Source: Halobacteriovoraceae bacterium (GTDB taxonomy: Bacteria; Bdellovibrionota; Bacteriovoracia; Bacteriovoracales; Bacteriovoracaceae). Taken from it: DNA of 38,594 nt. Positions 2,822-38,453 of the stretch are shown here, one piece after another. Position 1 is the stretch's first letter. Each line of letters begins with the position of its first letter. Location: positions 302,707 to 341,300 of the forward strand of contig PASP01000010.1 in the NCBI GenBank assembly GCA_002712005.1. Reading direction: 5' to 3'. Both the position numbers and the translations under genes were made by a program. A model generated the notes under the pieces. The model did not search any database, was not told where the DNA came from, and worked only from the letters and a program-made list of their open reading frames with translations.

Positions 2822-2833
2822 GATACAGGTGAC

Positions 2834-15319: not shown

Positions 15320-16636
15320 CTAGATACTCTTTAAGGTCGCAGTAAGAGATGACTTATTTTTTTTAAAGAGACAGTAAAGGGCTTGAGCTTTTAATTTATT
15401 TTCTAAAGGAATAAATTGAGCCCCTTTACTGGATTTGAGTTGTTCCATTGCGGCCTTACAATCACCATTGTGAACGGCGAGAAAGATTTTACTAAAATGA
15501 GCTTTATTTTCCATTTGAATATCTTTCTCTTCAGGTAGGGTCTTGATTGATGTATCAAGATCCTTCATTTCTCTACTTTGAATATCTTGAAATTCTTGCA
15601 TCGGGTGTGGCATTCCTGAGGGGATGAGATCTTGATTAATATCTTTAATAAAGCTTAGAGTAAGAAGCCTTGAATGAGGATTAAAGGTTTCATTATTCCA
15701 GTAGTTAACGACTTCATACATCGATTTATTATAGAAAGACGCTTGTAGATCTTTAGATTTTGTTAAAGGGGAAATCTTCTCTAAGAGATTGTAGCTAATA
15801 TTAATATTATGAGCATCCAAGGAGAGCATACTTTGCGTCAGCTCTATCATTTCCTTTTGACCTGCAAAGTAGAAAAAAGCAAAGAGAAGGGCACCAGCGA
15901 CCACGACATTCTTTATCAGATCCATGATCATCTTAAAAAGAATCCCCATAAAGACTGAGGCGCGATTCTCTTTTAAAATATCAAGTTTATCGAGTTTATC
16001 TAAAAGAGAGAAATTACTCTTTTTGGTAATCGACTCTAATTTATCGACTTTTTCTAAAAGGTCGAGATGTTCTAATTGATTTAGGTATTCTAGATTTTTT
16101 AACGCCGTAAGATTTTCTAAAGACTTCATCTGATCGAGTTTTTCAAGCCCTTTGATTTGGTCCAGATGAGAGAGTTCTTTTAAGTGATCTAACTTTTCTA
16201 GCTTATCGAGATTTTTGATTTCCTCAATCTTTTGAAGTCGATCGAGATGATCGAGTTTCTCTAGCTTTGGGCTTAGAGATTTTATATGTTGATCGAGTCC
16301 ATTTAGGTCTTCATGAAGACTGTCCAGTTTGGAAAGATCTTTTAAATGATCGAGTTTAGGAAGATAGTTTGATATTTCTTCGAGATCTTCTTTGAGATGA
16401 TTTATCTTTTTTAAATAGTTGAGATCTTCTAAGTGATCGAGCTTATTTAGCTTTTCTAATTTATTGAGTTTTTCAATATCAATGCATTTTTCGAGAAGAA
16501 GAAGTTGATCAAGAATACTCTGTACAACTTCTTGTACATCCGTATGGCGTTGGGGTGAGTGGGAAGATTCACCGCTACCGACCATGTCTGAATCAAAATT
16601 ATCTTTCGTTTTTACCAGTTTCACTTTTTCTCTCAA
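15320..16636 (-). CDS. Membrane protein with long three-residue Lxx repeat, last gene of the motAB operon
   Basis: A 438-aa protein; I do not recognise the family. Predicted start is TTG at 16636 with AAAGG about 9 nt upstream; ATG at codon 19 is an alternative. Residues 55-203 place Leu, Ile or Val at almost every third position (LEKLDHLKELSHLDQIKGL style), with occasional one-residue inserts. The intervening residues are mostly Lys, Asp, Glu, His and Asn. One membrane helix follows (about 241-258, KNVVVAGALLFAFFYFAG). A C-terminal region of about 180 residues has no Cys motif except near the end (DCKAA, LYCLF). A cytoplasmic repeat rod and periplasmic C-terminus are plausible. It follows motA, motB and a small membrane protein on the same strand, with 42 bp spacing, so it probably works with the stator complex. 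Ends in TAG. Confidence 0.7.
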   Translation of the reverse strand: MREKVKLVKTKDNFDSDMVGSGESSHSPQRHTDVQEVVQSILDQLLLLEKCIDIEKLNKLEKLNKLDHLEDLNYLKKINHLKEDLEEISNYLPKLDHLKDLSKLDSLHEDLNGLDQHIKSLSPKLEKLDHLDRLQKIEEIKNLDKLEKLDHLKELSHLDQIKGLEKLDQMKSLENLTALKNLEYLNQLEHLDLLEKVDKLESITKKSNFSLLDKLDKLDILKENRASVFMGILFKMIMDLIKNVVVAGALLFAFFYFAGQKEMIELTQSMLSLDAHNINISYNLLEKISPLTKSKDLQASFYNKSMYEVVNYWNNETFNPHSRLLTLSFIKDINQDLIPSGMPHPMQEFQDIQSREMKDLDTSIKTLPEEKDIQMENKAHFSKIFLAVHNGDCKAAMEQLKSSKGAQFIPLENKLKAQALYCLFKKNKSSLTATLKSI

Positions 16637-16678
16637 GAAAGGTTTACCTTTGTCTTATCGGAGGAAAAGAAAAAACTT

Positions 16679-17242
16679 TTAGAGGGCCAATATATTTAAT
16701 TTGTTGAATTTACTAAGATATCGTTTCTCAATGGTTGAGAGGCTTTGTTGGTTGAGATCTTTTTCCAGAAAGGGCTTCATTTCTTCTTTTGTTCGCTTAA
16801 GTTCCTGGCCTAGATGCCATCTAAAATAGGGGAGCATTAGGATTTGGAAAAAGTCGATAGAGTCTCTTCTTATAGCAAAATGGGCCAAAGACTCATAGAA
16901 AATGACCTGATTGATGATAAAGGCGATATGGGCAGATTCAAGATATTGATCTCCTTGGATCTTATCCTGGTTATGATAAGAGTCTAGGAGAGTAGGGACT
17001 TTTATAAGTTCAAGGGGAGTGGCCATCTTGGAAAGAGGGGCAATCTCACTTCTCAAACATTCTTGATAGAGTTCTTTTTTTGGGGATTCAGGACATAGAG
17101 AGGCAACATGAGTAAGGTCTAGTCTTAGCATCTTTCTTTTGAATGGACTGTCTTGAAATGTATAAAAGAGAAAAAGACTGAGACCAGTAAAGAGAGTAAA
17201 ATAGAGAATAAAAAAGAAGGCCTTTTTTATTGGATTAGTCAT
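16679..17242 (-). CDS. Small membrane-anchored protein downstream of motB
   Basis: A 187-aa protein of unknown family. I chose ATG 17242 (MTNPIKKAFFFILYF) because GGAG lies 9 nt upstream and the membrane anchor (residues about 7-27) then sits at the N-terminus; a TTG 7 codons upstream would be less natural. The start overlaps the motB stop by 8 nt (ATGACTAA), indicating translational coupling. The remainder is helical and probably periplasmic, with two Cys (CPES, ECLRSE) and Leu-rich segments. Its place between motB and the Lxx-repeat protein suggests a role as stator accessory, but this rests on context alone. Confidence 0.72.
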   Translation of the reverse strand: MTNPIKKAFFFILYFTLFTGLSLFLFYTFQDSPFKRKMLRLDLTHVASLCPESPKKELYQECLRSEIAPLSKMATPLELIKVPTLLDSYHNQDKIQGDQYLESAHIAFIINQVIFYESLAHFAIRRDSIDFFQILMLPYFRWHLGQELKRTKEEMKPFLEKDLNQQSLSTIEKRYLSKFNKLNILAL

Positions 17243-17942
17243 TGAAATATACTCCAAAACCAAACTTTACTTTCTTCTTATCATCAATAGGCTCGAGAAC
17301 TTTAATTACGACGCGACGGTTTTCTTCGAGGTTTTGATTGACTAAATTTCCTTTTTCATCAACTTCTTCAACTAGTGGTTCTGAGTCACCTTTAGTGGTT
17401 GAAGCAAGACGATTCGGTTCAAAACCATAATATTCAAAGCGGGCCAATACCTTTGCCGAACGGATGGCCGCCAATTCCCAGGCATTATCGGCAACCTGGC
17501 TTTTAGAAGCTTCGAAGGCATCAGAGTGCCCTTCGATGATTACTCTGTAGTTCTTTCTCTTTGTTTTAATAATATCAATAAGAACATCCAGTGAGCTCAA
17601 GGAGTCTGGGGATAGGCGATGGTCTCCTTCTGGAAAGAGGACACTACCTGAAAAGGAGACAACGATTTCTCCATTTCTAACTGAAATTTTAGCTTTCTTC
17701 GTGATTTCTGGATGTTTAGAGACCTCTTCCATCAGTTCTTTCATTTTTAATTCAGAACTTTTGTATTTGTCTTTATTAAAACTCTTTGAAAGTTCGATGG
17801 CCTTCTTATTGAATCCAGCTGGATCATAATTGGCAAAGGCCATCATGAGGATGAAGAAACAAGCAATAAGAGTCATCATATCGGCATAACTAACTAGCCA
17901 ATCGTCTCCGCCACCTTCATCAATATCGGGTTGTTGATCCAT
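17235..17942 (-). CDS. motB: MotB-type stator protein with OmpA-like peptidoglycan-binding domain
   Basis: A 235-aa protein. After a short acidic cytoplasmic tail comes the single membrane helix WLVSYADMMTLIACFFILMMAFA, with Asp21 in the position of the ion-carrying Asp of MotB. A linker and plug-like segment follow. Residues about 100-215 are an OmpA/MotB domain: VLFPEGDHRLSPDSL, VIIEGHSDAFE, WELAAIRSAKVLARFEYYG, ENRRVVIKVL. It should form the peptidoglycan-anchored half of an ion-driven stator with MotA. AGAGG lies upstream of the ATG; the gene follows motA by 25 bp. It is not next to flagellar structural genes in this window, so it may drive a different machine. Confidence 0.94.
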   Translation of the reverse strand: MDQQPDIDEGGGDDWLVSYADMMTLIACFFILMMAFANYDPAGFNKKAIELSKSFNKDKYKSSELKMKELMEEVSKHPEITKKAKISVRNGEIVVSFSGSVLFPEGDHRLSPDSLSSLDVLIDIIKTKRKNYRVIIEGHSDAFEASKSQVADNAWELAAIRSAKVLARFEYYGFEPNRLASTTKGDSEPLVEEVDEKGNLVNQNLEENRRVVIKVLEPIDDKKKVKFGFGVYFND

Positions 17943-17967
17943 AAGAAACCTCTAGTTATTCAATTGA

Positions 17968-18747
17968 TTAAGCATTTTTCCAATCAAGTCTATCTTTAGG
18001 GAGAAGAAAACTATTAAGATCTTCGGCTACAAGAATAGGGTTTGATTTTTCCATAATATGCTTAATGCCTTCTAAAATAATTTCATTTCTAATTTGTGAC
18101 TCTCGAGAGAGGACTTCTAAGTTTTCTCCGATAGGAATAACAAAGAGGTTCGCGATAATAACCCCATAGAGAGTTGTAATGAGGCACACTCCCATGGCCG
18201 GTCCAATCATCTTCATAGCATCTTCTCCACCGAGATTGGCCAGAAGAACGATCATCCCAATTGTGGTTCCCATCATTCCAAATGCTGGAGGGAATTTACC
18301 AAGTGACTTTATTTTTCTTGTATCTTCAAAGCGAAGAACACCCATTTGATTTGCTCTATGGGTAAGAATATCGATAACTTTTTCTTTTTCTAAAATTCCG
18401 TCTGCATAGAGTTGAATCGCCTCTTTTAAGAAGGGGTCATCTGCTTTACCTACTAAAGAGTCTAGAGCTTCACCATTACGAGCAGCCTCACAAATACTCA
18501 TTATATTCTTTATCAGATCACTTTGTTTCTTACTCTTACCTTTAAGAAATTGGGAAAAGAAGATCTTAAAGAGATTTCCAATTTTTGTTAACTGAAAGGC
18601 CACTGATGTAGCAGCAAAGGTTCCTCCAATGACAATAAAGAGGGAAGGGCCATCGAAGAAGAGCATAAGATCTGGGTTGGCCATTCTTAGTCCAGCAACG
18701 AGTACACCAGTAGATAAAAGGAGTCCAATAATGGAGATGATATTCAT
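17968..18747 (-). CDS. motA: MotA-type stator protein
   Basis: A 259-aa protein with four membrane helices: about 1-21, 32-52, 152-172 and 181-204. A cytoplasmic loop of about 100 residues between helices 2 and 3 includes a charged segment (CEAARNGEALDSLVGKADDPF) in the region where MotA contacts FliG. FPPAFGMMGTTIGMIVLLANLGG and IGPAMGVCLITTLYGVIIANL are family signatures; the Pro in the latter is the conserved helix-4 Pro. Length and layout are like PomA-type MotA. A GAGG Shine-Dalgarno precedes the ATG. It is first of a four-gene operon divergent from the lipoprotein operon that ends in the FliF-FliG fusion. Whether it uses H+ or Na+ is not decided here. Confidence 0.95.
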   Translation of the reverse strand: MNIISIIGLLLSTGVLVAGLRMANPDLMLFFDGPSLFIVIGGTFAATSVAFQLTKIGNLFKIFFSQFLKGKSKKQSDLIKNIMSICEAARNGEALDSLVGKADDPFLKEAIQLYADGILEKEKVIDILTHRANQMGVLRFEDTRKIKSLGKFPPAFGMMGTTIGMIVLLANLGGEDAMKMIGPAMGVCLITTLYGVIIANLFVIPIGENLEVLSRESQIRNEIILEGIKHIMEKSNPILVAEDLNSFLLPKDRLDWKNA

Positions 18748-18834
18748 AGGTTACTACCTCGAAATATGTGCAATTACGTATATTAGTTTTGCTCTATAGA
18801 TTAGCTTTAATTTTATCATAATTTAGGGAACTGC

Positions 18835-18864
18835 TTGAAATCATTGCTATTAGGCAAATATGTT
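18835..18864 (+). promoter_or_regulatory. Putative sigma-70 promoter of the lipoprotein operon
   Basis: TTGAAA (18835-18840) is followed at 18 bp by TATGTT (18859-18864). Predicted transcription starts near 18871, giving a leader of about 60 nt to the preferred TTG start at 18932. Lies in the region divergent from motA; no clear promoter was found for motA on the other strand. Confidence 0.5.
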
Positions 18865-18917
18865 CACCTCTCCATAAAAACTAATGAATTTTCGGTTTAA
18901 AGTCGAAGAGAACAAAG

Positions 18918-18923
18918 AGGAGG
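18918..18923 (+). promoter_or_regulatory. Strong Shine-Dalgarno deciding the TTG start at 18932
   Basis: A perfect AGGAGG lies 8 nt before an in-frame TTG. That start gives a 28-residue lipoprotein signal peptide. The ATG at 18884 has no ribosome site and would add 16 acidic residues before the signal. Confidence 0.65.
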
Positions 18924-18931
18924 AATTTTAT

Positions 18932-20872
18932 TTGAACGGACTAAGTTCTGATAAATATTTAAGAAAGTTATCTTTTGCAGCACAGACATTCGTACTGAGC
19001 TGTTTCCTCATTTCTTGTGTGGGAACCATTGAAGATAAGAATCCTGAAATTACAAAAGGGGCGAGTACAGAAACTCTTCCTATTACCTTTGAAGGGGTTT
19101 TTGAAGCGACTGCCATTGCTGATACGAAGATTGACGTTTATTTCTATCCTTCAAATATTGAACCAAAGAATGTCACTTATCTTATTTCCTATGATGGGCT
19201 TCAAAACCCTATCTCTGTTCCGGGTACGACTCTTAAAACCAACCATAAAGGTTTACTAAAATACACAGTAACCGGACTCAATATTAATACCAACTACACT
19301 TTCAGTGTTCAGGCGAAAGATATCTCGGGATCTATCAGCACCAGTGCCGCCGTATACACGGAGAAGACATTTGAAAATATAACGGGTGATTTTGCCGGAA
19401 TTAGTAATGTCAGAAATTTAGCAGGTGAGGATGGAAGAACTTCTTTAAGAGTTGAGTGGCCAGCTGCGAGAATTGAAGGAAATACTTTCTATCCCAATGA
19501 AATTGATCCCAATCAATATGAAATCATTCTTATTGATGCAGAAAATCTAACTCCCAATGCCTTTGATGACGATTTCTTTGGTGAGCCTAATCGTAAGAAA
19601 TTTTATGTGGCTGGTTCCAAAGTGAGTCACCAAATCAATGGTCTTAGTCCAGGAACAAAGTACTATGTACGAGTTCGTACGATCCACCAAGGATTTGTCG
19701 ACTATGGTGCGGATGTCGATTATAAGAAAGAAGAGAATTCAAATTATATTCTTGCTCAAACCCTCTCTGATGATGCTTCTAATGTTGATGTTGATTTAAC
19801 AACATTCAATGTTGATATTCTCTCTCTTAATTCAGCAACCTTGGCATGGGAAGGAGCAGAGGGACCTCTCGTCGAATATCGTGTCTACTATCGCAATATG
19901 GATGATGGTGGTCTTCCTTGGAGTTCTTTTAGAACTTCTCGCAATACAGTTTGTGATGGAGAAGATGGCACCTATCCTGAGTGGCGCTGTAAGAAACTCG
20001 ACTTCACAGAGACTTCAACTAAACTTGCAGATCTTGAGCCTCTTGCGGATTATGAAATGATCACTGTGATTTGTATGACTACAGGTTGTGAATACTCAAA
20101 TTCAATTGAGTATGAAAACCAAAGTCCTTATACGATTTTTCCCGGTATAGCGAATTTCTCTGGGATAAATGAAATCGAACAACCTAAGTACTATTGGTCT
20201 GTGGATGAAGTCTATCTTAAAATTGCTTCTCCTGACTTTTCAAGTGGGGCGATTGATGGGCTTCTTGTGGAAGCGAAAGCTAGAACTGCTGACGATGGTC
20301 CTGTGAATAACACCATTCTAAATCATCCAACAGCCGGTAATCCCTCTAATTTAAATGTTGATAATTTTGACTACACTTCAGATGACACGATTACTGTGAC
20401 GGGTGTGCAAACGGATTCAGATGAACAGTATTGCTTCTCTGTTTTACCGTTTATCTATAATGAAGGAGTCGTGCAAATATCACGGGATGGAGAAGTCACT
20501 CGATGTGTAACTCCTACAGTAGCCCTTCCTGATGAAGAGCAATTTGAAGGATTGAACTTCAGTACGACAATTCCTGACACTTCAACAAATACCATTTCTC
20601 TTAACTGGTCAGCACCAGAGGGGGGAATTTATGACAAGTTTAGAATTTTTATTAGGGACTCTTCCGGTGGAGAAACATTTGAATTCTCTGATGCGGTAAA
20701 CCCTTTAAATACGGATTATGTGATGGTTGAAGTTCCTTATGGAACAACGTCGTATACTTTCTCCTTCTTACCGGATGGAGTTTATACGATTGGGGTTCTT
20801 CCTTACTACAGCAATAATATGGAATATGCCCCTTATAATAGCAATATTTATACATTTGATACGGATGACTAA
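18932..20872 (+). CDS. Fn3-type repeat lipoprotein (first of tandem pair)
   Basis: A 646-aa protein from TTG 18932; the ATG at 18884 would give 662 aa. The signal peptide ends in lipobox LISC with Cys29, followed by VGTIEDKNP. The mature part is almost all beta-rich fibronectin-III-like domains, with repeated LxPxTxYxVxVxTxxxG endings (GLNINTNYTFSVQAKD, GLSPGTKYYVRVRTIHQG, DLEPLADYEMITVICMT, SFLPDGVYTIGVLPYY). No enzymatic motif is seen. It is paralogous to the N-terminal part of the next protein, with which it overlaps by one base (TAATG). It is likely an envelope lipoprotein, outer-membrane or surface, and the first gene of the long operon divergent from motAB. Confidence 0.82.
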   Translation: MNGLSSDKYLRKLSFAAQTFVLSCFLISCVGTIEDKNPEITKGASTETLPITFEGVFEATAIADTKIDVYFYPSNIEPKNVTYLISYDGLQNPISVPGTTLKTNHKGLLKYTVTGLNINTNYTFSVQAKDISGSISTSAAVYTEKTFENITGDFAGISNVRNLAGEDGRTSLRVEWPAARIEGNTFYPNEIDPNQYEIILIDAENLTPNAFDDDFFGEPNRKKFYVAGSKVSHQINGLSPGTKYYVRVRTIHQGFVDYGADVDYKKEENSNYILAQTLSDDASNVDVDLTTFNVDILSLNSATLAWEGAEGPLVEYRVYYRNMDDGGLPWSSFRTSRNTVCDGEDGTYPEWRCKKLDFTETSTKLADLEPLADYEMITVICMTTGCEYSNSIEYENQSPYTIFPGIANFSGINEIEQPKYYWSVDEVYLKIASPDFSSGAIDGLLVEAKARTADDGPVNNTILNHPTAGNPSNLNVDNFDYTSDDTITVTGVQTDSDEQYCFSVLPFIYNEGVVQISRDGEVTRCVTPTVALPDEEQFEGLNFSTTIPDTSTNTISLNWSAPEGGIYDKFRIFIRDSSGGETFEFSDAVNPLNTDYVMVEVPYGTTSYTFSFLPDGVYTIGVLPYYSNNMEYAPYNSNIYTFDTDD

Positions 20873-23800
20873 TGTTTAGAATTGAGAGAGTTTCAACATT
20901 CTTCTTATATGTGATGGGATTGATTTTTCTAACGTCTTTCTCTTCATCTTGTGTGGGAACGATTGAAGATATGAATCCTCCAACCACTAAGTCTGCAACG
21001 ACAGCTGGTGAGCCTGTTCCTTTTTCTGGAATAGTAGAAGCTGTAGCAATTAGTGATTCTAAGGTAACTCTTAGTTTCTTACCTGCAGCTGGAAAGCAGA
21101 CTAATCTTGTGTATCTTATCTATATCAATAATTCGAATACTCCTTTGGAAGTAAAAGGGGGAAGTCTTTCTCCTAATGAGTCTGGTTATTATACTTATAC
21201 GGTTACAAAGCTAAGTGTGAATACGACTTATTCTTTTGCCGTTGGTGTTAGAGATCTAACCACAGGGGTTGAGTCTGATGAAAATAAGGAAATGTTCGCT
21301 ACGACATTTTCTAATTTTACAGCTGACTTTGATGGAATTGGATCTGTTGTTCCCGCAGCTGGTGAGGCCGGGACTGAGGAAGTTATCGTTGAATGGATTC
21401 CGGCCATTACAAAAGGTGCAGGTTCCTTTCCTAAGCCAACAGATCCAATTGCTTACGAAATTCGCTATATGAAAGCTGAAAATGGGAAACCAGGAGATCT
21501 CAAAAATGGAGCTGATCCAGATGTCACTGTGACTATGGTTCCCTCAACGATTTCTTCTTCCTCTCCCGTTTCTACCGAGAGAAAGAGACCTGTAGGGGGG
21601 CTTCAGTCTGGAACCAAATACTATTTTATGGTTCGTTGTATCCATAAGGGTTACGCTCTTTATGGATCGGATCCTAATTATAAAGTGGAGCAAAATCTAA
21701 AGATATTATCGGTTACAACTACGGATGAAGGTGGTCTCTTAGAGTGGGACAATGAATCGGTTAAGGTTGAAGCTCCCGATGGAGAAGCTGGATTAACAAA
21801 GGCCGACGTGTCTTGGGCTAAGGCCAGTGGACCATTTCAATTCTATCGTGTCTTCTTTGTTAAAATTGGAGAAGCCAATGCGCTTGATCCCAATGATGAT
21901 GGAGTCGATGATAAGACTTTAGATGAACTCGCTGATGAAGCTCCTGAATTTGATTCAGCATATCTGCAAAGTATCGTTGATGGTACCACCGCTGAAACAA
22001 GTGGATTTAAAGATGTCGATTCTGAAAATGCTTACTATAGACTAGGGCAGGATTCCTCATTAACAAGTTACGGCTACTATAAAATTACTACCTATGTATG
22101 TACCAATTCAAGTTGTGCAGAAGGTTTTAGAATTCCTGGAAATGAGGTCATTTATCGAGTAACTCCTTCTCTTGCTCATTTTTCAGGACTCTTAGCGATT
22201 AAAAGTCCAGGAGATCTTACTCAGGTCGATAATCCAGGGACAACGGATACGGTTACGGTAACCTTTGATCCTCCAGTTGTTTCTGCTGGTTATGTCAATA
22301 AATTTGAACTCTACTGTTTTGAAAGTCTTGATGATACCAGTCCAACTCTTCTCGAAGAGGGAGTGGCCAATACATCAGGAAAAGATGGTTGTAATGGTTT
22401 AGTAAGAACAACTGCAACACCCACGGGAATTAGTGCCATTGGTGAATTTGGAGAGATTGAAATTCAAGCGGATTTCATTCCTTCTGGAAAAACGGCATCA
22501 ACACGAAAGTACTGCTTCGGTGCGATTCCTGTTATTGAAAGTAGTAACTATATTAGAAGAGATATTGGGAATGCGACAGTAAGATGTAAAATTATCGAAA
22601 TTAAAGTTCCAAGCCTTGATGAATTCACTGGAGTGAATGACTCTTGTATCGCTGGAACTACAACTTTAGATGCTAGTTGGAATGAGCCGTCTAATGGTAT
22701 TTATGAAAATTATGAAGTCTTTTGGAAGGAAGTTGATGGAGCAGGTTTTAAATTCTCTGATGCTATTGCTGGAGATGCAGCTTACTCAAGTGCAGATGGA
22801 ATTCCTTCTTCAACACTAAGTTATCAAATTACAGGACTCACTCCAGGAAAGTCTTATCAATATGGTGTCCTTACTTATATTGAAGATGATGACGGAAATA
22901 AAACCTATTCTGAATTTAATGCAGGAACTAAGAGTTGTGCTCTAAGCTATCCAGAGCCTCGTTTTGGGGAATGGGTTGATATCTTTGCTATTGGTCCTAA
23001 GGAAGATGGTAGGGTGCCCTTAAAAGATTCAACTGGAGAGAGAACTTTTCTCTTTGAAACTATCGATTCACTAGGACAGGCGATTGAAGTTGAAGTGGAT
23101 AGTGATCTCAATCCAACAAGTGATCACAAGAATATGTTTGGGGATAATTCAGTATCAACAGGTACATTTGATGGAGTTTGGGGAAAACCTAATGCCGATG
23201 TAGATCAGTTGGTGCGCCATCGCTATTCAAACTCTGGAATCATTCGCCTTATGTGGAAAGATGTAAGCTTTGATGGAGGTTCAAAATCTCTCAATGATTA
23301 TATTGTTGAATTTGGAGATAATGCTCTCGCTAAGAGAAACCGTCTCTTTGGTTATAAAGTTCTTCGTTCTGAAGATGAAGGAATCACTTGGACGGATCTG
23401 ACTTCTGAAGATTACGATTTTCAAACTTCTACAAATAGTGGACTGATTCATCCTAAAGACTTTACTGAATATGCAAGACCTAATATCTCTCCAGCGCCTG
23501 ATCCCTTTAAAGTTGGAGAGTTTATTGATTATAGTGTGAAGTACTCAGCGAATAATGGAAATACAGAAAGAGCAAGAGTTTACTGGTATAAAATTGTTCC
23601 CGTATTTAATGGAAAAGAGATTCGTTATGAACGAACCGATTCTAATCCTCAACATATTATGAAAGTTGTTCTTCCTCCTCCTAATATGGGATTAGTTCAT
23701 CGCTTAATGGCCAATAGACAGACCTGTATGGAATTAGGAAAGAGCTACTCAACTGAAATAGAGGATTTCTATACTTGTCCTTACAATGGAGTAGGGGCCA

Positions 23801-26196: not shown

Positions 26197-26198
26197 TT

Positions 26199-31193: not shown

Positions 31194-31258
31194 GGTCATT
31201 TTCTAAGGGAAAAACTTCCCCCCACTCATTTTTGAAGTCCTATAGATATAATAAGTCT

Positions 31259-32689
31259 ATGTTTTTAGGAAAGAAGAGACTTATTCTTTGCTCAATTTTC
31301 TTGAGTACTCTTTTATTAACTCCCAACAAAGGGAGTTGTTACGCTCAATCAGATGATTCCTCGACTTCTTCAGAGGCCGAACCCAAGAAAATAATTCGCT
31401 ATAATATAGGAGTGAAGTCAAGCTACTCGAGTTCATTAACAGAGACAGAGAAGAACTATATCAAGAAGAATGTTTTTGAAGTTCTTATGCAAACCAATCG
31501 CTTTAATATAATTCTTGGTCATCAATACAAGAAAACAAAGAGGGATAATCTCTTTAGTTTAACCATCCAAATCACGGATGCCCCGGCCATTAGTGGAGAA
31601 CGGGATAATGATCTGAATGTAAAACTCATCCTTAAAGATGAAGTGGAAGACTTTCTCATTAACTTCAAACAAGAAAAACGGGTTTTAAGAAATAAATTGC
31701 AAATAACTCTTCGTTCTATGCTCTATGGGATTTTCTATGGAAAAAACTATGATGAGAAAAGAGATGAGTTAATCGTGAATGAAATACTGCCCCTAAAAAA
31801 AAAAGAAGAGAATAAGAAACCAAAATCTCCTAAGAAGAATCCTGAAAAAGCAGAAGATCCTGTATTAGAAGAAACAGTTCCTGAAGTCCTTCCAGAACCT
31901 GAGCCTAAACCTGAAAAGGAAAAGAAAGAGCCCAAGAAGGAAGAGCCTGAAGTTAAAAAAGAAGAGAAGAAAAAAGATAAAGTCGAAATTTCTGATTTCG
32001 ATTCCCCTAATTTAGATCTTGAAAAAGAAATTCCTCCTAAGCCCAAGAAAGTAGAACTCTCTGATAAATGGACTAATCAATTTAGGATGTATGTGGGAAA
32101 TGTTGACGAGGAAATTATTTCAGATTCTGTCGTCCAAATTGGAACGACGACATCAAGGATTGTTCTTGGAGCAGATGGCCATATGGGAGTAGAAGGAAGA
32201 AATCACTTCTATACCTTTGGAGGTGAAGTCGGCTTAGTAAAAGGGGACCACGAATTTGGTTTTGGACCCAAGTATGATTTCTATGGGGGATATAATATTG
32301 CCCCTTTAGGTAATTTCTTTTCAATAGGTCCCTCTGTAAGTTTGAGTAATCTAAATTATGCTGCCGTTTTTACGGAGGGAGCTGGAGAGAAGAGATTTTC
32401 CGGAAGTGGACTCTGGGGAGGGGTCAAGAGTGAGATCTTTATTGATTTTAGTCTATTCACCCTCCTTTTGGACTTTAGATACCAGAGAGTTCTTGTCGGG
32501 TCTATAACAAGTAATGCAGGTGATGATGTGGAAGCCTCTGGTTCCAAAGTCATTATGTCGGCCACTGTAACCTTTTGGGAGGGCTGGGGACTAGGCTTAA
32601 GAAATGAATCTATCGAAATGACCACCCTAACTGATTCAAATCTCGTTGTTCGAGATGATTCCTTTGGCCTCTTTCTAACCTATCAATAA
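31259..32689 (+). CDS. Exported protein with Pro/Glu/Lys linker and predicted outer-membrane barrel
   Basis: A 476-aa protein from ATG 31259 (MFLGKKRLILCSIFL...); a TTG at 31232 would lengthen it by 9. Neither has a good ribosome site. A signal peptide is followed by a globular domain (residues about 30-180) with the pattern LTETEKNYIKKNVFEVLMQTNRFNIILG, reminiscent of TolB/CsgG-type N-terminal folds but not assigned. Then comes a linker of about 85 residues dominated by Lys, Glu and Pro, long enough to cross part of the periplasm. The end is about 200 residues of amphipathic strands (FRMYVGNVDEEII, HFYTFGGEVGLVKG, FFSIGPSVSLSNLNY, FSLFTLLLDFRYQ) ending GLFLTYQ. An A10 tract sits just before the linker. 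It may link the outer membrane to periplasmic parts of the operon's machine. Confidence 0.75.
   Translation: MFLGKKRLILCSIFLSTLLLTPNKGSCYAQSDDSSTSSEAEPKKIIRYNIGVKSSYSSSLTETEKNYIKKNVFEVLMQTNRFNIILGHQYKKTKRDNLFSLTIQITDAPAISGERDNDLNVKLILKDEVEDFLINFKQEKRVLRNKLQITLRSMLYGIFYGKNYDEKRDELIVNEILPLKKKEENKKPKSPKKNPEKAEDPVLEETVPEVLPEPEPKPEKEKKEPKKEEPEVKKEEKKKDKVEISDFDSPNLDLEKEIPPKPKKVELSDKWTNQFRMYVGNVDEEIISDSVVQIGTTTSRIVLGADGHMGVEGRNHFYTFGGEVGLVKGDHEFGFGPKYDFYGGYNIAPLGNFFSIGPSVSLSNLNYAAVFTEGAGEKRFSGSGLWGGVKSEIFIDFSLFTLLLDFRYQRVLVGSITSNAGDDVEASGSKVIMSATVTFWEGWGLGLRNESIEMTTLTDSNLVVRDDSFGLFLTYQ
31795..31804 (+). repeat. A10 homopolymer inside a coding region
   Basis: The codons read CTA AAA AAA AAA GAA. Loss of one A would terminate the protein within about 25 codons, before the linker and barrel. 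Such tracts can cause transcriptional slippage or phase variation. Confidence 0.9.
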
Positions 32690-32836
32690 AGTAAGAGAAA
32701 GAATTGTGGTCCATAAATACTGCTTAGGAAAATCTTTACCCGGTGCAGTCAAAATAAATAAAGTGTATTCTATTTGTAAGGTGTAATCACCCTTTCCAGG
32801 AAGGATAGGGGATCGTTTCGTTAAAAACAGGATGTT

Positions 32837-33424
32837 ATGGAGTTATTAGATAAATTTAACTTTGCTCTAGAAGCGCTCGATACAAAGAAAGATAGTGCTC
32901 TCATGCAAGAAGAGATTATCTTTTCCTCAATCTCAAATAGAAGAGGTTTTAGCATTTCTCAGGAAGAATTTCAAAACTTAGGGGATGCGCTAGAGAACCA
33001 TTTTCATCATATCTTAGCCCCTATGTCTAAGAGAATCGATTTCTCTATGGCAAACTACTTTTCTACTGAAGTTCAATATAAGGAAACCTATGCTCTTGCT
33101 CTTAAGAATTTAAAGCAAGTTCTAAGTTACTTAATGGCGAGTTTTGTTTCTCAGGTAGAGACACAGATTACTTTGAGTTCAGATCAAATTGAATTGAAAT
33201 TTAAAAACTTATGTTTAAGAAAGAGGGAAGATCAACGCTCTCTACTTTTAAAAATTAAAAATAATCGCTTTTATAACGCCAAAATTGAAGAATTTAATTT
33301 TGGTAGTCGTAAGTTCTATGAAGTGACTTTAATAGGAAGTTGGAGCCTTCAGAAGAAGAAATTGCATAAATCTTACCGCTCTCAGGATGGAGCAAGGAAA
33401 GGTCAATGGGAAAACAGATTGTAG
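32837..33424 (+). CDS. Small cytoplasmic protein of unknown family
   Basis: A 195-aa protein with no signal peptide or membrane helix. An AGGA motif precedes the ATG. The N-terminal half is helical (LLDKFNFALEALD, FQNLGDALENHFHHILAP, KETYALALKNLKQVLSYLM). The second half has beta-like segments (DQIELKFKNLCLRKRE, SLLLKIKNNRFYNAKIEEF, YEVTLIGSWSL). No family recognised. Its end overlaps the next gene by 19 nt, implying translational coupling. The 147-bp gap before it contains small inverted repeats (GGTG-TAAT-CACC at 32780-32791 and a CCTTTCC/GGAAGG pair) but no convincing promoter; it may start a second transcription unit. Confidence 0.75.
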   Translation: MELLDKFNFALEALDTKKDSALMQEEIIFSSISNRRGFSISQEEFQNLGDALENHFHHILAPMSKRIDFSMANYFSTEVQYKETYALALKNLKQVLSYLMASFVSQVETQITLSSDQIELKFKNLCLRKREDQRSLLLKIKNNRFYNAKIEEFNFGSRKFYEVTLIGSWSLQKKKLHKSYRSQDGARKGQWENRL

Positions 33425-34977
33425 TATTTATTTTTCTTTTTATCGCTATGACATCGATTTCATTCCATGCCGATGCTAATGATTCTCTATTCCCTAATGG
33501 ACAATGGACATGGGAGAATATTCAAAATGATGTATCTAAACTTTCAAGAACTTCGTTCTATGAAAAATATAGAGCCGAGTTAGATAAGGCCGGTTTAGTT
33601 GTTTCGGACACTCAACAAAATGAAGAATTTCGTATTTTAAGAGCGGAAGAAATTAGAGATTCTTTGGCAAGAGTTGAAAAAGCGTTTTATGAAAAAGGCT
33701 ATTCTCAATGGAAAGAGGTATCTCAAATTGAAAAAGAATTTAATGAACTCTATGAAAGCTCTGTAGGAGCATATTCTATTCTTAAAAAAAGAGTTTATGA
33801 TTTAAATCTTGCAACTTACAAAGACAAGAATATTTCTTCTTCTGTAAAAGAGAAGGTCAATGGTGAATTAAGTGATTTATCGAGAAGGATTGATCATCAC
33901 CACAAAGCAAAATCAACACTTCCTTCACAAGCAGAAATGGTAGCAGCGCTAGGAAGTCTTTATAATCAACGCGTGGGAGCAGTTAAAACTTCTTCTTCTA
34001 GCTTTGCCCTTTCTTCTTCCCAAATCTATGGTTTATCTGCAGCGGTTGGTATTGTGATCCTATGTGGATTCTTTGCGATGATGAGAAAGAGAAAGAAAGC
34101 TCTTGAGTTAAGAAGAAGGGAAGAGGAGCAAGCGCGTGTCATTCCTGGGGCAGGATTACAAAGAACTGGGGTGATCACGATAAATGGGCGTGGAACTATT
34201 GAAACCATGAATCTTAAGGCCAGTTCTCTCTTTAACGGTGATATTAAGTGTGGAGATCAGTGGGATGATTATTTCCAAAAGAACTTCTACCGAGGTAAGA
34301 AACATCTTGGAGTAAAGGGCTTCTATCGTTATGGCCAAAATTCCAAGGTTGTATTCTATCTCAATGGACATATGGATAAAGTCTCTCAGATGAGAACCAT
34401 TGAAGTCGGACAAATGCCTTTGAAGGATTTTGATCAGGCATTAAATTTAATGGAGCGTTCATCAATTCGAGTCGACACTATGGAACTCTTTGATGGTGTT
34501 TTTTCAGAACTTATCAATTTGGGGCAAATTGATCTTTCATTAGATGTTTTTAATCTTATTCACTTTGGTAAAGGCTCTGATTTTCTTTATTTAAGTGAAT
34601 TTGAGGGTAAAAAGTATATTGGCCATGTCATAAAAGTGATTGACGCTTTTACGCGATTTAAAAACCAAGGTGAGTTATCTCGAATTGACATTGATCGGGA
34701 GGGGGGAGAGCTTCTTATTAAAGCTTCTGTTCATCATTGTTCACTCTCTGAAGATGACTTAAAAGAAAGAGTTATTTTCGAAAATAATACAGAAAAATTA
34801 AATGATATTTTATCTTCAGTGCAAAAGCTCTCTCAAAGTTATGAGAGTAGTCTCTTTGTCAAAAACCTTACTATTAATGGGGAAAGGAAAGTTGAGTTAA
34901 AGTTCAAAGTACAAGACAACTCAAATTTTCAATCTCTCCATCGAGTAAAAACTGTGGGAAATTATGCAAATGCTTAA
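33406..34977 (+). CDS. Single-pass inner-membrane protein with periplasmic coiled coil and PAS-like cytoplasmic part
   Basis: A 523-aa protein. A signal peptide (residues 1-24, ending HADA) precedes a periplasmic region of about 180 residues, mostly helical and coiled-coil-like (EEFRILRAEEIRDSLARVEKAFYEKG). A membrane helix at about 207-226 (IYGLSAAVGIVILCGFFAMM) is followed by a basic stop-transfer run. The cytoplasmic part starts with a PAS-like segment (GVITINGRGTIETMNLKASSLFNG, residues about 253-340), then about 180 residues with no clear kinase, GGDEF or cyclase motif. The AGGAAAGG Shine-Dalgarno is good. The next gene starts 14 nt before its stop. It may transmit an intracellular state to the periplasmic machine. 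The PAS call is by eye. Confidence 0.72.
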   Translation: MGKQIVVFIFLFIAMTSISFHADANDSLFPNGQWTWENIQNDVSKLSRTSFYEKYRAELDKAGLVVSDTQQNEEFRILRAEEIRDSLARVEKAFYEKGYSQWKEVSQIEKEFNELYESSVGAYSILKKRVYDLNLATYKDKNISSSVKEKVNGELSDLSRRIDHHHKAKSTLPSQAEMVAALGSLYNQRVGAVKTSSSSFALSSSQIYGLSAAVGIVILCGFFAMMRKRKKALELRRREEEQARVIPGAGLQRTGVITINGRGTIETMNLKASSLFNGDIKCGDQWDDYFQKNFYRGKKHLGVKGFYRYGQNSKVVFYLNGHMDKVSQMRTIEVGQMPLKDFDQALNLMERSSIRVDTMELFDGVFSELINLGQIDLSLDVFNLIHFGKGSDFLYLSEFEGKKYIGHVIKVIDAFTRFKNQGELSRIDIDREGGELLIKASVHHCSLSEDDLKERVIFENNTEKLNDILSSVQKLSQSYESSLFVKNLTINGERKVELKFKVQDNSNFQSLHRVKTVGNYANA

Positions 34978-35593
34978 AGGTCTTATAGCACTGGCCATAT
35001 GCACATTTAGTATTGGATCTTGGGCGAGAGCAGACTTTCATAGTGTGCTTTCTTACAATTTTGGAATGAGTAATTTTTCTGTTACTGAAAATGAAGCGGC
35101 CATTGAGCAGACGGACGATAGTGTAGCATCAGGAACTGAAGAGAGCGCGGAGTCCTCAAGTGTCTCGAGTATGGCCTTTCAACTCTCATGGGAATTTGGG
35201 CACGATGGTTCTATGGCCTACTTCTTAGATGCACAAGCTCCTTTAATGGGGGGAAGTGGTGCTGCTGTTTATAATACAAAAATAGGTTTTAATATGTATC
35301 TCAATGATCTGGGAAGCAAGTTCTCCATGAATCAATCAGGTACAACTGTCGTGATTATTCCCACTTTAAAATATTATTGGGGAGCTTCAGTAGGGGGAGG
35401 CTATGTTGTCTATCTTACTGAATCTCAAAAGAAAGGTGATATCTACTTTGGTTTAGGCCTTCACGGTGGAATGGTTTATTCCATTGGTGATACTTGGGGC
35501 ATCAAAGCCGAAGCCGGTATTACTAGAGCGACAGGAATTGAAACATCCGGAATGAAGATGGATGTGATGTTAGGAGCAACGTACTACTTATGA
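34964..35593 (+). CDS. Small outer-membrane beta-barrel protein
   Basis: A 209-aa protein (ATG 34964; a second ATG at 34970 is possible). A signal peptide ends near SWARA. Amphipathic strands with Gly and aromatic residues follow (FHSVLSYNFGMSNFSV, SSMAFQLSWEFGH, TKIGFNMYLNDLG, IYFGLGLHGGMVYSIG, MKMDVMLGATYYL), fitting a barrel of about eight strands. A Ser/Glu-rich insert (residues about 42-66) is probably an extracellular loop. It is embedded between coupled genes: 14 nt overlap before, 4 nt (ATGA) after. Likely the outer-membrane part of the complex encoded here; no family named. Confidence 0.75.
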   Translation: MQMLKGLIALAICTFSIGSWARADFHSVLSYNFGMSNFSVTENEAAIEQTDDSVASGTEESAESSSVSSMAFQLSWEFGHDGSMAYFLDAQAPLMGGSGAAVYNTKIGFNMYLNDLGSKFSMNQSGTTVVIIPTLKYYWGASVGGGYVVYLTESQKKGDIYFGLGLHGGMVYSIGDTWGIKAEAGITRATGIETSGMKMDVMLGATYYL

Positions 35594-36201
35594 AACGATT
35601 ACTCTTTTGTTTAAGTTTTATCCTTTCTCTTAGCGTAAATGCTGGGAAAGTCACTATTGACTCAAGTCCGGCAGACTGTGAAATTACAGTCATCAATCCC
35701 GAAAATGGAATGAAGACGGTTTTAGGGAAAACACCTTATGACACCGATATGGCGCAGTTGAAGTCAAATGTTGGAGATAACGGAGTGGTTCAGCTTGATA
35801 TACAAAAGGCTGGGTTTCAGAAATATCATATGGCCCTTCCTATTGTGGGAAGCTCTGATATTAAGGTTTTTGCCAATCTAGAAGTGGAGAATGATGTCAA
35901 ATTAACTCAGGATATTGATCTACTTATGGCCGATCTCTTTGATGTTCTAAGAATGGTGAGAGTTCAAGATTTTAATAATGGTATGAAGAAGTTAGAACTT
36001 CTCGAGCAGAAGTTTCCTCATTATTCCATCATCTATGAAATGAAGGGGATGATTTCTTATTTAAGAAAGAATTTTAAAGAAGCTTTAAACTTTTATCGTA
36101 AATCTTTTGGTTTAAATCCTAAGAATAGAGAAGCTTACAGAATGAAAGTTTATCTAGAAAAGAAATTTAATGTAAATCCTAACTCAGGAAGTGAGGGGTA
36201 A
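35590..36201 (+). CDS. PEGA-like plus TPR periplasmic protein
   Basis: A 203-aa protein. A signal peptide (residues 1-18) is followed by a PEGA-like domain: GKVTIDSSPADCEITVIN, LGKTPYDTDM, VQLDIQKAGFQKYHMALP. Residues about 120-195 contain TPR-like helices (FNNGMKKLELLEQKFPHYS, FKEALNFYRKSFGLNPKNREAYRM). Both domain types mediate protein or surface contacts. Its start overlaps the previous stop by 4 nt, and its stop shares one base with the start of the FliF-FliG fusion (TAATG), indicating tightly linked production. Probably a periplasmic adaptor. Confidence 0.75.
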   Translation: MKRLLFCLSFILSLSVNAGKVTIDSSPADCEITVINPENGMKTVLGKTPYDTDMAQLKSNVGDNGVVQLDIQKAGFQKYHMALPIVGSSDIKVFANLEVENDVKLTQDIDLLMADLFDVLRMVRVQDFNNGMKKLELLEQKFPHYSIIYEMKGMISYLRKNFKEALNFYRKSFGLNPKNREAYRMKVYLEKKFNVNPNSGSEG

Positions 36202-38453
36202 TGAATAAGTTAAGTAAGAGAACTCTTTTTCGTAAATTAACAGCAAGTTTTGTACTGTTCTTTATGTTTGAAGCCCTAGCTTCTGATATCAATCAACCGC
36301 TTCCTTCTTTATCATGGCAAAAAACTCAGCTCGAGGGTTTGATCATTGGAAAAGTAGAGAAAACACTTGATCGAATTTTAAAAAAGAATGAATACACTAT
36401 AGATGTTTCTCTAGAAGTAAGTGAGCCTGAAGGTCCTGAATGGAATAAGAGTGATGATCCCATGAAGAAAGGGGGAGAAAATAGTCGCTCAACGGCAAGC
36501 GCCCCAGAAGGTGAGAAAGGTAGTAAAGACGATCCCGCTGCGAAAGAAGGGGAAGAGGCCGGTAAGGATGAAAATAAAGAAGATAAGGATAATAAAGATA
36601 AGAAGAGAGATCCCGCATCTCTAAGCCCAAATAAAATCCGCTTTGATGATCAAGACTTACCCGAAACTCCGGAAGACTTTGTAGTCTTTAATAAGTTTGG
36701 TCTTGAAGCTCCATTAGTTGATGACTTCAATGATCTTCAACCCGATGGAAAGATCGTTCTTGCTATGTCAAATGGTGGAGGAGCCGGTCGAGATCCTGCT
36801 TCGTTAGAATTGGAAAATAATTTAGAAGAAGTAGAAGAAGAAAGGGATACACTCAAGTCAGAATTAGAAATTGCTAAGGCCCAAGCTGAAAAGGCGAAGC
36901 AAGCCGCTAAGAATATGAGAAGTCCAACTTCTACAGTTGAAAAAATCTGGAAATACAATCAGGCAATCGATATCTATAAGAATCTCGCCAAAGTGGATAT
37001 TCTTGTAAGAATCAGCCAAGGATTATCGGAAGAACAACGTCAAACAGCGGAAAGATTTGTGAAGGCGATTAATTTTAACTTAGGGGAAGTGAAGCCTAAA
37101 GTTAAGGTTGAATTTGTTAAACTAGGTAAAGACTTTGAGAAAAAGAATAATCCATGGGGAGACATCCTCAAAGTGATCTCTGTTTTTGGTCAATACGCGA
37201 CTCTTTTTGGAATCGTAATTGGAGTGATCCTCTTTGGAATCATGGCCAAAGGACTCATCGCTAAATATCATGAACTTAATTCAGGTACTTCTAGCCAAGG
37301 TGCTTTTACCATGGAAAACGGTGCATCTGATGAAGATGATAAGAGCGACTCGGGTAGTGGACTCGGCTCCATGCCTGGTAGTGGGCTTGATGGAGAAGCG
37401 AATCTCAATATCAATGGTGTTGAGCGTTTTAAGAACTTCATAGGACATTCTAAAGAAGACGCAATTCTACTCGTTAAGAAATGGTTAAAAGAAAAAGATA
37501 AAAATCAAATGGCCGCTCTTAAAGCTTTAGTTCAACAAATGGATAATGATGCTTTAAAGCCCATATTGATGACTCTTTCTGAATCTGAAAAGAATGAATG
37601 GCGTGAACTCTTAGAAGAAGGTCTCACTTCAGAAGAATTGGCAAGGGCCAACAGCTTCATTGGTAATCAGATTATTCAAAATATTATGGTTCCAAGCTTT
37701 ATAAAAGACCCCAATGTCTATTCGAAAATTGTTCAAGTTAAGCCCAATCAGTTTAAAAATATTGTTGAAAAAGACTTCAATACCGCATGTATGCTCTTGA
37801 GTCTCATGTCTCCAGATTTTGTAAACTCAGTATTTGCTTATTTTGACGAAGAACTGCAACAAAAACTCATTCAAGGTTCACTAAGTGTAACACCCGATCA
37901 CTTTGAAAAAGGTCAGGCCAGAATTGCAAAGGCCCTAAGCTTTATAGACGATAATCCAAAAGTACGTCCATTCCTTGATGGATTAGCAAAAATGATCCCA
38001 TCAGCGGGAAGAGACGTAGAAAGACTTCTTTATACAAATTTTATTAAAGAAGCCCCTGAATCTCGTGCAGACTTCATCTTAAGAGAATACTTCCCAGGCT
38101 TTCTCTTAAATGAACTCCCTGAAGAATTGATTAAGGCCGTATTCAATGCTTATCCTATGTCCAAGAGAGTTAAACTTCTTAAATCTCTTCCTGAGGATAC
38201 AGCAGACTACTACCTAGATATCTTCGCTCCCGCTGGAACTAAGGCCAATGACCTTATTCAAATCGAGTTTGAAACCATTGAAAGAGATGACACTCTTATC
38301 AAAGAGATTGAGGCTAATCGAGATGAATACTGGCGTGACTTCGTTAAGTTTCTACGAACTCGTTTAAAGGCGGAAAAACAATTTGCATCTCAGGTTGATG
38401 AAGTGGTTGCGATTTGGAGAGAAGATACTACTACCGAATCTAGAGCCGCTTAA
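36201..38453 (+). CDS. Natural FliF(C-terminal)-FliG-like fusion protein
   Basis: A 750-aa protein. A signal peptide covers residues 1-28. Residues 43-75 (LEGLIIGKVEKTLDRILKKNEYTIDVSLEV) resemble the FliF segment preceding its RBM3 region. An acidic/basic low-complexity linker (80-140) and a coiled coil (200-240) follow. KYNQAIDIYKNLAKVDILVRI through PKVKVEFVKL (251-308) looks like FliF RBM3. A membrane helix spans about 328-352. The cytoplasmic side has ERFKNFIGHSKEDAILLVKKWLKE (FliF tail-like), FliG N-like helices (435-495), a FliG middle-like region (505-560) and a FliG C-like end: LNELPEELIKAVFNAYPMSKRVKLLKSL. The N-terminal RBM1/2 of FliF are absent. It would put a FliG-type rotor surface directly on a membrane ring. 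Similarity was judged by eye. The gene ends the operon, divergent from motAB. Confidence 0.78.
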   Translation: MNKLSKRTLFRKLTASFVLFFMFEALASDINQPLPSLSWQKTQLEGLIIGKVEKTLDRILKKNEYTIDVSLEVSEPEGPEWNKSDDPMKKGGENSRSTASAPEGEKGSKDDPAAKEGEEAGKDENKEDKDNKDKKRDPASLSPNKIRFDDQDLPETPEDFVVFNKFGLEAPLVDDFNDLQPDGKIVLAMSNGGGAGRDPASLELENNLEEVEEERDTLKSELEIAKAQAEKAKQAAKNMRSPTSTVEKIWKYNQAIDIYKNLAKVDILVRISQGLSEEQRQTAERFVKAINFNLGEVKPKVKVEFVKLGKDFEKKNNPWGDILKVISVFGQYATLFGIVIGVILFGIMAKGLIAKYHELNSGTSSQGAFTMENGASDEDDKSDSGSGLGSMPGSGLDGEANLNINGVERFKNFIGHSKEDAILLVKKWLKEKDKNQMAALKALVQQMDNDALKPILMTLSESEKNEWRELLEEGLTSEELARANSFIGNQIIQNIMVPSFIKDPNVYSKIVQVKPNQFKNIVEKDFNTACMLLSLMSPDFVNSVFAYFDEELQQKLIQGSLSVTPDHFEKGQARIAKALSFIDDNPKVRPFLDGLAKMIPSAGRDVERLLYTNFIKEAPESRADFILREYFPGFLLNELPEELIKAVFNAYPMSKRVKLLKSLPEDTADYYLDIFAPAGTKANDLIQIEFETIERDDTLIKEIEANRDEYWRDFVKFLRTRLKAEKQFASQVDEVVAIWREDTTTESRAA

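Follow-up and report, generated by a model that had tools for sequence, protein, structure and literature searches.

A gene cluster that very probably represents a real, conserved non-flagellar stator-rotor system was identified in a 38,594-nucleotide stretch of the genome of a Halobacteriovoraceae bacterium (NCBI GenBank assembly GCA_002712005.1, contig PASP01000010.1, positions 302,707 to 341,300 of the forward strand). The whole of this stretch is referred to as the window, and its two divergent operons are collected in Table 1. The core set of the cluster, termed the module, consists of MotA, MotB, a periplasmic PEGA-TPR protein, a fused FliF-FliG protein and an 8-stranded outer-membrane β-barrel. 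The gene set, its linkage across genomes, the architecture of the rotor protein, the separate clade of its stators and the module's independence of the flagellum are supported by the data. The favoured reading, considered probable, is that of a non-flagellar, ion-driven rotary envelope motor whose most likely load is surface adhesins.

Fused FliF-FliG Rotor Protein

In the new kind of rotor protein encoded by the last gene of the window, a signal peptide is followed by the S-ring domain of FliF (RBM3), one transmembrane helix and a FliG-like domain in complete form. Pfam and NCBIfam scans of the 750-amino-acid (aa) protein gave no FliF or FliG match; Pfam MgtE_N alone was reported, at its cut-off. 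When a profile of 18 orthologs was compared with known structures, FliG was found at E 2.8e-7.

The fusion announced in a preliminary description of this DNA, made by a model from the sequence alone, was supported by profile search and also by AlphaFold modeling and structural alignment. Residues 34–309 of the model resembled the RBM3/collar region of FliF (6scn, 6sd1) with Z 10.2 and a root-mean-square deviation (rmsd) of 3.4–3.5 Å over 98 residues, and residues 434–745 resembled FliG. At Z 10.2 and rmsd 3.1, the FliG C-terminal domain 1qc7 was aligned to the fusion over all of its 101 residues. For the RBM3 domain, matches to OsmC-like and MamM folds (Z 7–9) were attributed to a common topology and are weaker than that to FliF. 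In the same model and alignments RBM1 and RBM2 were absent, and a single transmembrane segment followed the signal peptide.

Torque residues were mapped by profile alignment to eight canonical FliG proteins of relatives and to E. coli FliG, in which the residues at the R281 and D289 positions contact R90 and E98 of MotA (PMC12505986). The window protein carries K681 at the R281 position and E689 at the D289 position. Across 58 members of the fusion family, the D289 position was acidic in 57 and the R281 position basic in 46. In the same 58 proteins the FliM-binding EHPQ motif is not conserved, its aligned columns being variable.

A FliG_C-like domain also occurs alone in proteins of about 140–150 aa (G000:C4:54370-54690 in the window's own genome, and similar ones in G016, G018, G081 and G123). 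The genomes with these small proteins also carry canonical FliG.

Module Stators

MotA of the window matched the PomA/MotP/MotA models of NCBIfam, with TolQ reached only at 0.076. The identities proposed earlier for MotA and MotB were upheld by Pfam (MotA_ExbB 3.4e-16, MotB_plug 3.5e-13, OmpA 6.6e-10). In module MotA proteins, R90 was present in 51 of 56, and the channel prolines P173 and P222 were found in all 56; in MotB, the channel Asp was invariant in the alignment. Module stators do not generally retain E. coli MotA residue E98, and R90 was therefore the only one of the two E. coli charges to be scored. At the position aligned to E. coli E150, Arg was found in 55 of 56 module stators, with Glu, Asp or Gln in the others. 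Judging from this alignment, Arg at MotA position 150 appears to be a simple diagnostic residue of module stators.

A tree of 75 MotA proteins placed the module stators in a single group (59 rows, support 94/99), distinct from the flagellar stators that the same genomes encode. A MotA gene lying 8 kb from the fusion in genome G021 was considered as a module stator; it was of flagellar type by the tree and was not counted as linkage.

Linkage and Distribution across Bdellovibrionota

The fusion was first found in 18 of 59 relatives. With the 18-member profile it was detected in 92 of the 369 genomes of the phylum. A 38-member profile listed 157 genomes, about 98 of them with matches below 1e-20, the weaker matches including canonical FliG.

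Altogether, 65 loci were examined. PEGA-TPR lay at most 200 bp from the fusion in 62 of them. MotA could be seen at up to 18 kb in 51 loci, 38 of which have it within 3 kb; the other 14 loci were mostly cut by contig ends or by a short view. In genome G123 the distance of MotAB was about 10 kb. The barrel was found within 1 kb of the fusion in 38 of the 65 loci with the window-family profile, and in divergent loci an open reading frame (ORF) of 190–226 aa occupies its slot.

Gene order within the modules varies widely among loci, so descent of one fixed operon fails to explain the association. Under this changing gene order the two gene sets stay linked across the phylum, and the lack of linkage that would have counted against the earlier proposal was not observed. 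A contig scan with a narrower alignment yielded 13 named loci, all in Bdellovibrionota or in relatives labelled Deltaproteobacteria/Oligoflexia and one of them in a cultured Bacteriovorax isolate; the patterns used were family-specific, and this result says nothing on other phyla.

The window-type module in its own genome (G000) is preceded by housekeeping genes for a FecR-like protein, two small proteins and coproporphyrinogen oxidase. In G005, the identical neighbourhood precedes another module subtype (L228 2894–16299, against 10685–38453 in the window), and it is possible that this neighbourhood is a site of integration or exchange.

Genomes without a Flagellum

FlhA was found in 319 of the 369 genomes. 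Four near-complete genomes without FlhA nevertheless carry module stators, namely G103 (94%), G104 (99%), G269 (97%) and G271 (99%). They span two families, and G103 holds two modules. FliP and FliMN_C are absent from all four; flagellin and canonical FliG_C, where tested (G103 and G104), are absent as well. The fused rotor is present in G103, G269 and G271. The G104 contig breaks off within PEGA-TPR, ahead of the expected start of the rotor gene, and the fusion is not in view.

Genome G101, a flagellum-less sister of these carriers, has neither MotB nor the fusion. Genome G081, considered as a further aflagellate carrier, is without FlhA and FliP; since flagellins and FliG are present in it, it was left out of the evidence. 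In the window's own genome, the export gate (FlhA, FliP) is present elsewhere.

Among flagellate members of the family with a completeness of 90% or more, the mean number of MotB genes (values taken by hand, relatedness ignored) was 3.0 with the fusion (n = 27) and 1.46 without it (n = 41). The number of MotB genes exceeded that of fusions by at least one in 26 of the 27 flagellate fusion carriers, and a third module subtype explains some of the extra MotB in fusion-negative genomes.

The data thus support INDEPENDENCE from the flagellum. Stators assorting only with the flagellum, the pattern that the preliminary description had set against its own proposal, were not observed; the module stators form a separate clade and are kept in aflagellate genomes.

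Further Subtypes and Bdellovibrio bacteriovorus HD100

A second cluster in the window's genome (L165, G000:C16, ~139,200–147,200) contains PEGA-TPR, MotA, MotB and proteins of 569, 202 and 1227 aa. The 569-aa protein is RBM3/FliG-like and weakly related to the fusion, and the 1227-aa protein is of the NHL/PKD type.

A genome with three MotAB pairs and a related cluster at 2.92 Mb is taken here to be that of B. bacteriovorus HD100. The three pairs stand at positions fitting MotAB1, 2 and 3, and their Bd numbers were provisionally assigned by order and spacing. Around the middle pair (L243, 2,913,420–2,928,899) lie genes for PEGA-TPR, a 577-aa protein (about 2,913,420–2,915,153), two proteins of barrel type, a VWA protein and a further protein longer than 1450 aa. 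The 577-aa protein, a FliG paralog with a signal peptide, passed the Pfam cut-offs (FliG_C 4.6e-10, FliG_M 1.4e-7 and FliG_N) and matched FliG in the PDB at 6e-12. Its subfamily, represented by its two Bdellovibrio relatives, matched the fusion family over most of the length (hhalign 99.2%, 9.5e-20).

In the MotA tree, HD100 MotA2 fell within the module stator group and MotA1 outside it. By these comparisons, HD100 MotAB2 appears to lie in a homologous cluster of module type. MotAB2 (Bd3021/Bd3020) has so far been regarded as a flagellar stator (PMC11323537). No description of the HD100 MotAB2 cluster was found in the published literature, preprints being outside that search.

Gene Content of the Window

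The ORFs of the window are long and tightly packed, with every gene at the coordinates claimed for it. Two divergent operons sharing a short intergenic region, as previously described, were recovered. The minus-strand operon comprises MotA, MotB, a small membrane protein and the Lxx-repeat protein; the plus-strand operon spans 18884–38453 and may continue past the end of the contig, which coincides with the end of the window. Promoter-like matches in the intergenic region were at chance level only.

Table 1. Features of the two divergent operons, in window positions.
Position	Strand	Feature	Evidence
15320..16636	-	Lxx-repeat protein, one transmembrane stretch; accessory	ORF; relatives few (G016C4, G103, G123)
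16679..17263	-	Small membrane protein, overlaps motB end; accessory	ORF; relatives in G016C4, G018, G109
17235..17942	-	MotB stator subunit, plug and OmpA-like peptidoglycan-binding domain, channel Asp21 invariant	Pfam; ortholog alignment
17968..18747	-	MotA stator subunit of the module clade; R at the position of E. coli R90, P173/P222 retained	Pfam; NCBIfam PomA-like 1.6e-42; tree
18748..18883	.	Intergenic region between divergent operons, 136 bp	Coordinates
18884..20872	+	FN3 lipoprotein, 662 aa	Pfam fn3 7e-22; lipobox LISC
20872..26196	+	Giant FN3 surface protein, 1774 aa; homologs adjoin many modules	Pfam fn3 7e-20
26199..31193	+	Giant Ig-like (HYDIN/ASH-type) lipoprotein, 1664 aa	Pfam HYDIN-like Ig 4e-9; lipobox LSAC
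31232..32689	+	485-aa secreted protein, candidate barrel; accessory	ORF; relatives in other genomes
32837..33424	+	195-aa protein, no family match in Pfam/NCBIfam	ORF
33406..34977	+	523-aa inner-membrane protein, weakly PAS-like; accessory	Pfam 0.0087; relatives
34964..35593	+	Core: 8-stranded outer-membrane β-barrel, 209 aa	AlphaFold; structural alignment; ortholog alignment
35590..36201	+	Core: periplasmic PEGA-TPR protein (203 aa), adjoins rotor gene almost everywhere	Ortholog domain matches
36201..38453	+	Core: FliF(RBM3)-TM-FliG fusion rotor protein, 750 aa	Profile search; AlphaFold; structural alignment

Several annotations of the plus-strand operon were refined. Of the two barrels predicted earlier, one was recovered as an outer-membrane barrel in the 209-aa protein, whose AlphaFold model (pLDDT 88.8) resembled the NspA, OmpW and OmpA folds at Z 15–17. 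The domains of the PEGA-TPR adaptor were likewise found, PEGA in 8 and TPR in 15 of 19 orthologs. Of the three giant lipoproteins described, the first has only 662 aa, and the lipobox is clear in the first and third, not in the second. The inner-membrane location of the PAS-like protein was retained, with its PAS part weak (E 0.009).

The large FN3/Ig/VWA-type surface proteins are variable partners of the core set. The lipoproteins and the 485-aa, PAS-like, small membrane and Lxx proteins are variable accessories, not universal parts. Beside Bdellovibrionaceae modules, VWA-type (MIDAS-like) proteins were observed (L206 5953–7311, L208 14215–15588, L243 12917–14326); in prey invasion by Bdellovibrio, a MIDAS adhesin matters (PMC11003981). 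Two further genes of the window (1214–6541; 535 and 1235 aa) have relatives about 4–10 kb upstream of the module in G020 and are possible further partners.

Proposed Mechanism and Alternative Explanations

Linkage, the separate stator clade, the rotor architecture and the torque charges support the earlier view of the gene set as one stator-rotor machine. Assembly into such a machine, its rotation, a coupling role for PEGA-TPR and the movement of adhesins are inferred. MotA5-MotB2 stators, anchored to peptidoglycan through MotB, would push a ring of fused FliF-FliG, in which the RBM3 domain would form an S-ring-like periplasmic collar and the FliG domain a cytoplasmic torque ring. PEGA-TPR would transmit rotation across the periplasm to the small outer-membrane barrel and, most likely, also to the giant FN3/Ig/VWA-type surface proteins, which would grip a surface or prey. 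Since the ring is devoid of the export-gate regions of FliF and of the FliM-binding motif, neither protein export nor switching in the flagellar way is expected, and the fusion ring would act as pure drive.

That the output is adhesin movement, in gliding or in prey handling, is a possibility given slightly less than even weight. A wider proposal is put forward more tentatively, namely that a motor found throughout Bdellovibrionota turns a FliF-FliG ring, moves adhesins, includes HD100 MotAB2 and is the gliding or prey-handling motor of Bdellovibrio.

Certain observations weigh against the favoured reading or its extension to Bdellovibrio. In the 18-ortholog profile search the FliF match was weak (0.26–0.56) but correctly positioned. 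MotAB lies about 25 kb from the fusion in G269 and G271, and no MotAB was found within the viewed flanks of 5–9 kb in G199, G231 and G356. The surface proteins differ between lineages, and the MotB counts take no account of relatedness. Homologs of Agl-Glt have been proposed as the gliding machine of Bdellovibrio (PMC3169522). By its title, as cited in PMC11323537, Morehouse 2011 assigns all three HD100 MotAB pairs to flagellar motility, and the module stators may accordingly affect swimming too.

The alternative that survives best, although unlikely, is energy transduction of the Tol/Ton kind, in which the module would serve the transport, secretion or assembly of large surface lipoproteins and not movement. 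Eight-stranded barrels are too narrow for protein passage, no secretion families were found in the cluster, and a torque ring of the FliG type whose interface charges are conserved points to sustained rotation. In favour of this alternative, the genes beside the motor code for large exported proteins and an outer-membrane barrel, and other 5:2-type motors power transport or secretion, e.g., GldLM for type IX (PMC13104615).

It is improbable that the module supplies auxiliary or alternative flagellar parts, with MotAB as extra stators and the fusion as an extra rotor or ring. Such a role would fit the flagellate state of most carriers (FlhA in 319/369 genomes) and the treatment so far of every HD100 MotAB pair as a flagellar stator. 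However, the module and its stators are kept in genomes without FlhA, FliP and FliMN_C, and also without flagellin and FliG where tested; the stators group in a clade apart, the FliM-binding motif lacks conservation, and the cluster encodes an outer-membrane barrel and surface proteins but no other flagellar genes.

A neighbourhood conserved by shared regulation or transfer, without a joint machine, is very improbable: the patchy distribution, the lineage-specific nature of several accessory genes and the variable sites (different module types at identical housekeeping genes in G005 and G000) would agree with it, but the fusion, PEGA-TPR and MotAB stay linked through gene-order changes across many families, and the extra MotB genes track the fusion.

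Comparison with Known Systems

Flagellar-type stators and the FliG torque ring have so far been regarded as exclusive to flagella, and a 2025 phylogeny names the MotAB-type stator clade "flagellar ion transporters" (PMC12505986). If the rotary-motor reading is true, a FliF-FliG rotor that is served by dedicated stators and occurs in genomes lacking a flagellum would represent a separate machine based on a shared motor. The flagellar rotor-stator pair would then have found a second use in nature, which bears on flagellum evolution. The gliding motor of Bdellovibrio is described as unidentified (PMC13104615); the module is a testable candidate for the motor of surface gliding or prey handling, and the HD100 MotAB2 cluster makes the question directly accessible to gene deletion.

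With the flagellar motor, the module shares a MotAB-class stator with ion-channel residues, the RBM3 fold of FliF, and the FliG middle and C-terminal domains with their torque charges. The flagellar motor has a full-length FliF with RBM1-RBM2 and two transmembrane segments, whereas the module has one fused rotor protein without RBM1 and RBM2. The module cluster also differs in being without export gate, rod, hook and filament, in being kept in genomes without a flagellum, and in its association with surface proteins and a barrel of the outer membrane.

The Agl-Glt system of Myxococcus is not known to have a FliF-FliG rotor ring, whereas the module has one. The plan is the same, with an ion-driven motor, a periplasmic TPR protein, a barrel and VWA/adhesin-like proteins (PMC13104615, PMC3169522). 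The Agl-Glt stator is the TolQR-like AglRQS, placed among generic ion transporters (PMC12505986), and that of the module is of the MotAB class. Pfam and NCBIfam scans of the cluster, made with no Glt profile, gave no Glt assignment.

GldLM of type IX gliding is likewise of the 5:2 type and drives surface adhesins within a diderm envelope; it is described as similar to MotAB without homology, and no FliG-type rotor has been described for it (PMC13104615). No GldK-N family was matched in the general NCBIfam/Pfam scans of the window proteins. ZorAB of Zorya is, like the module stator, MotAB-like and non-flagellar. The window MotB scored 20.8 bits against the ZorB1 family, far below its cut-off of 400, and ZorAB is tied to defence genes, whereas the module stator is tied to a rotor ring.

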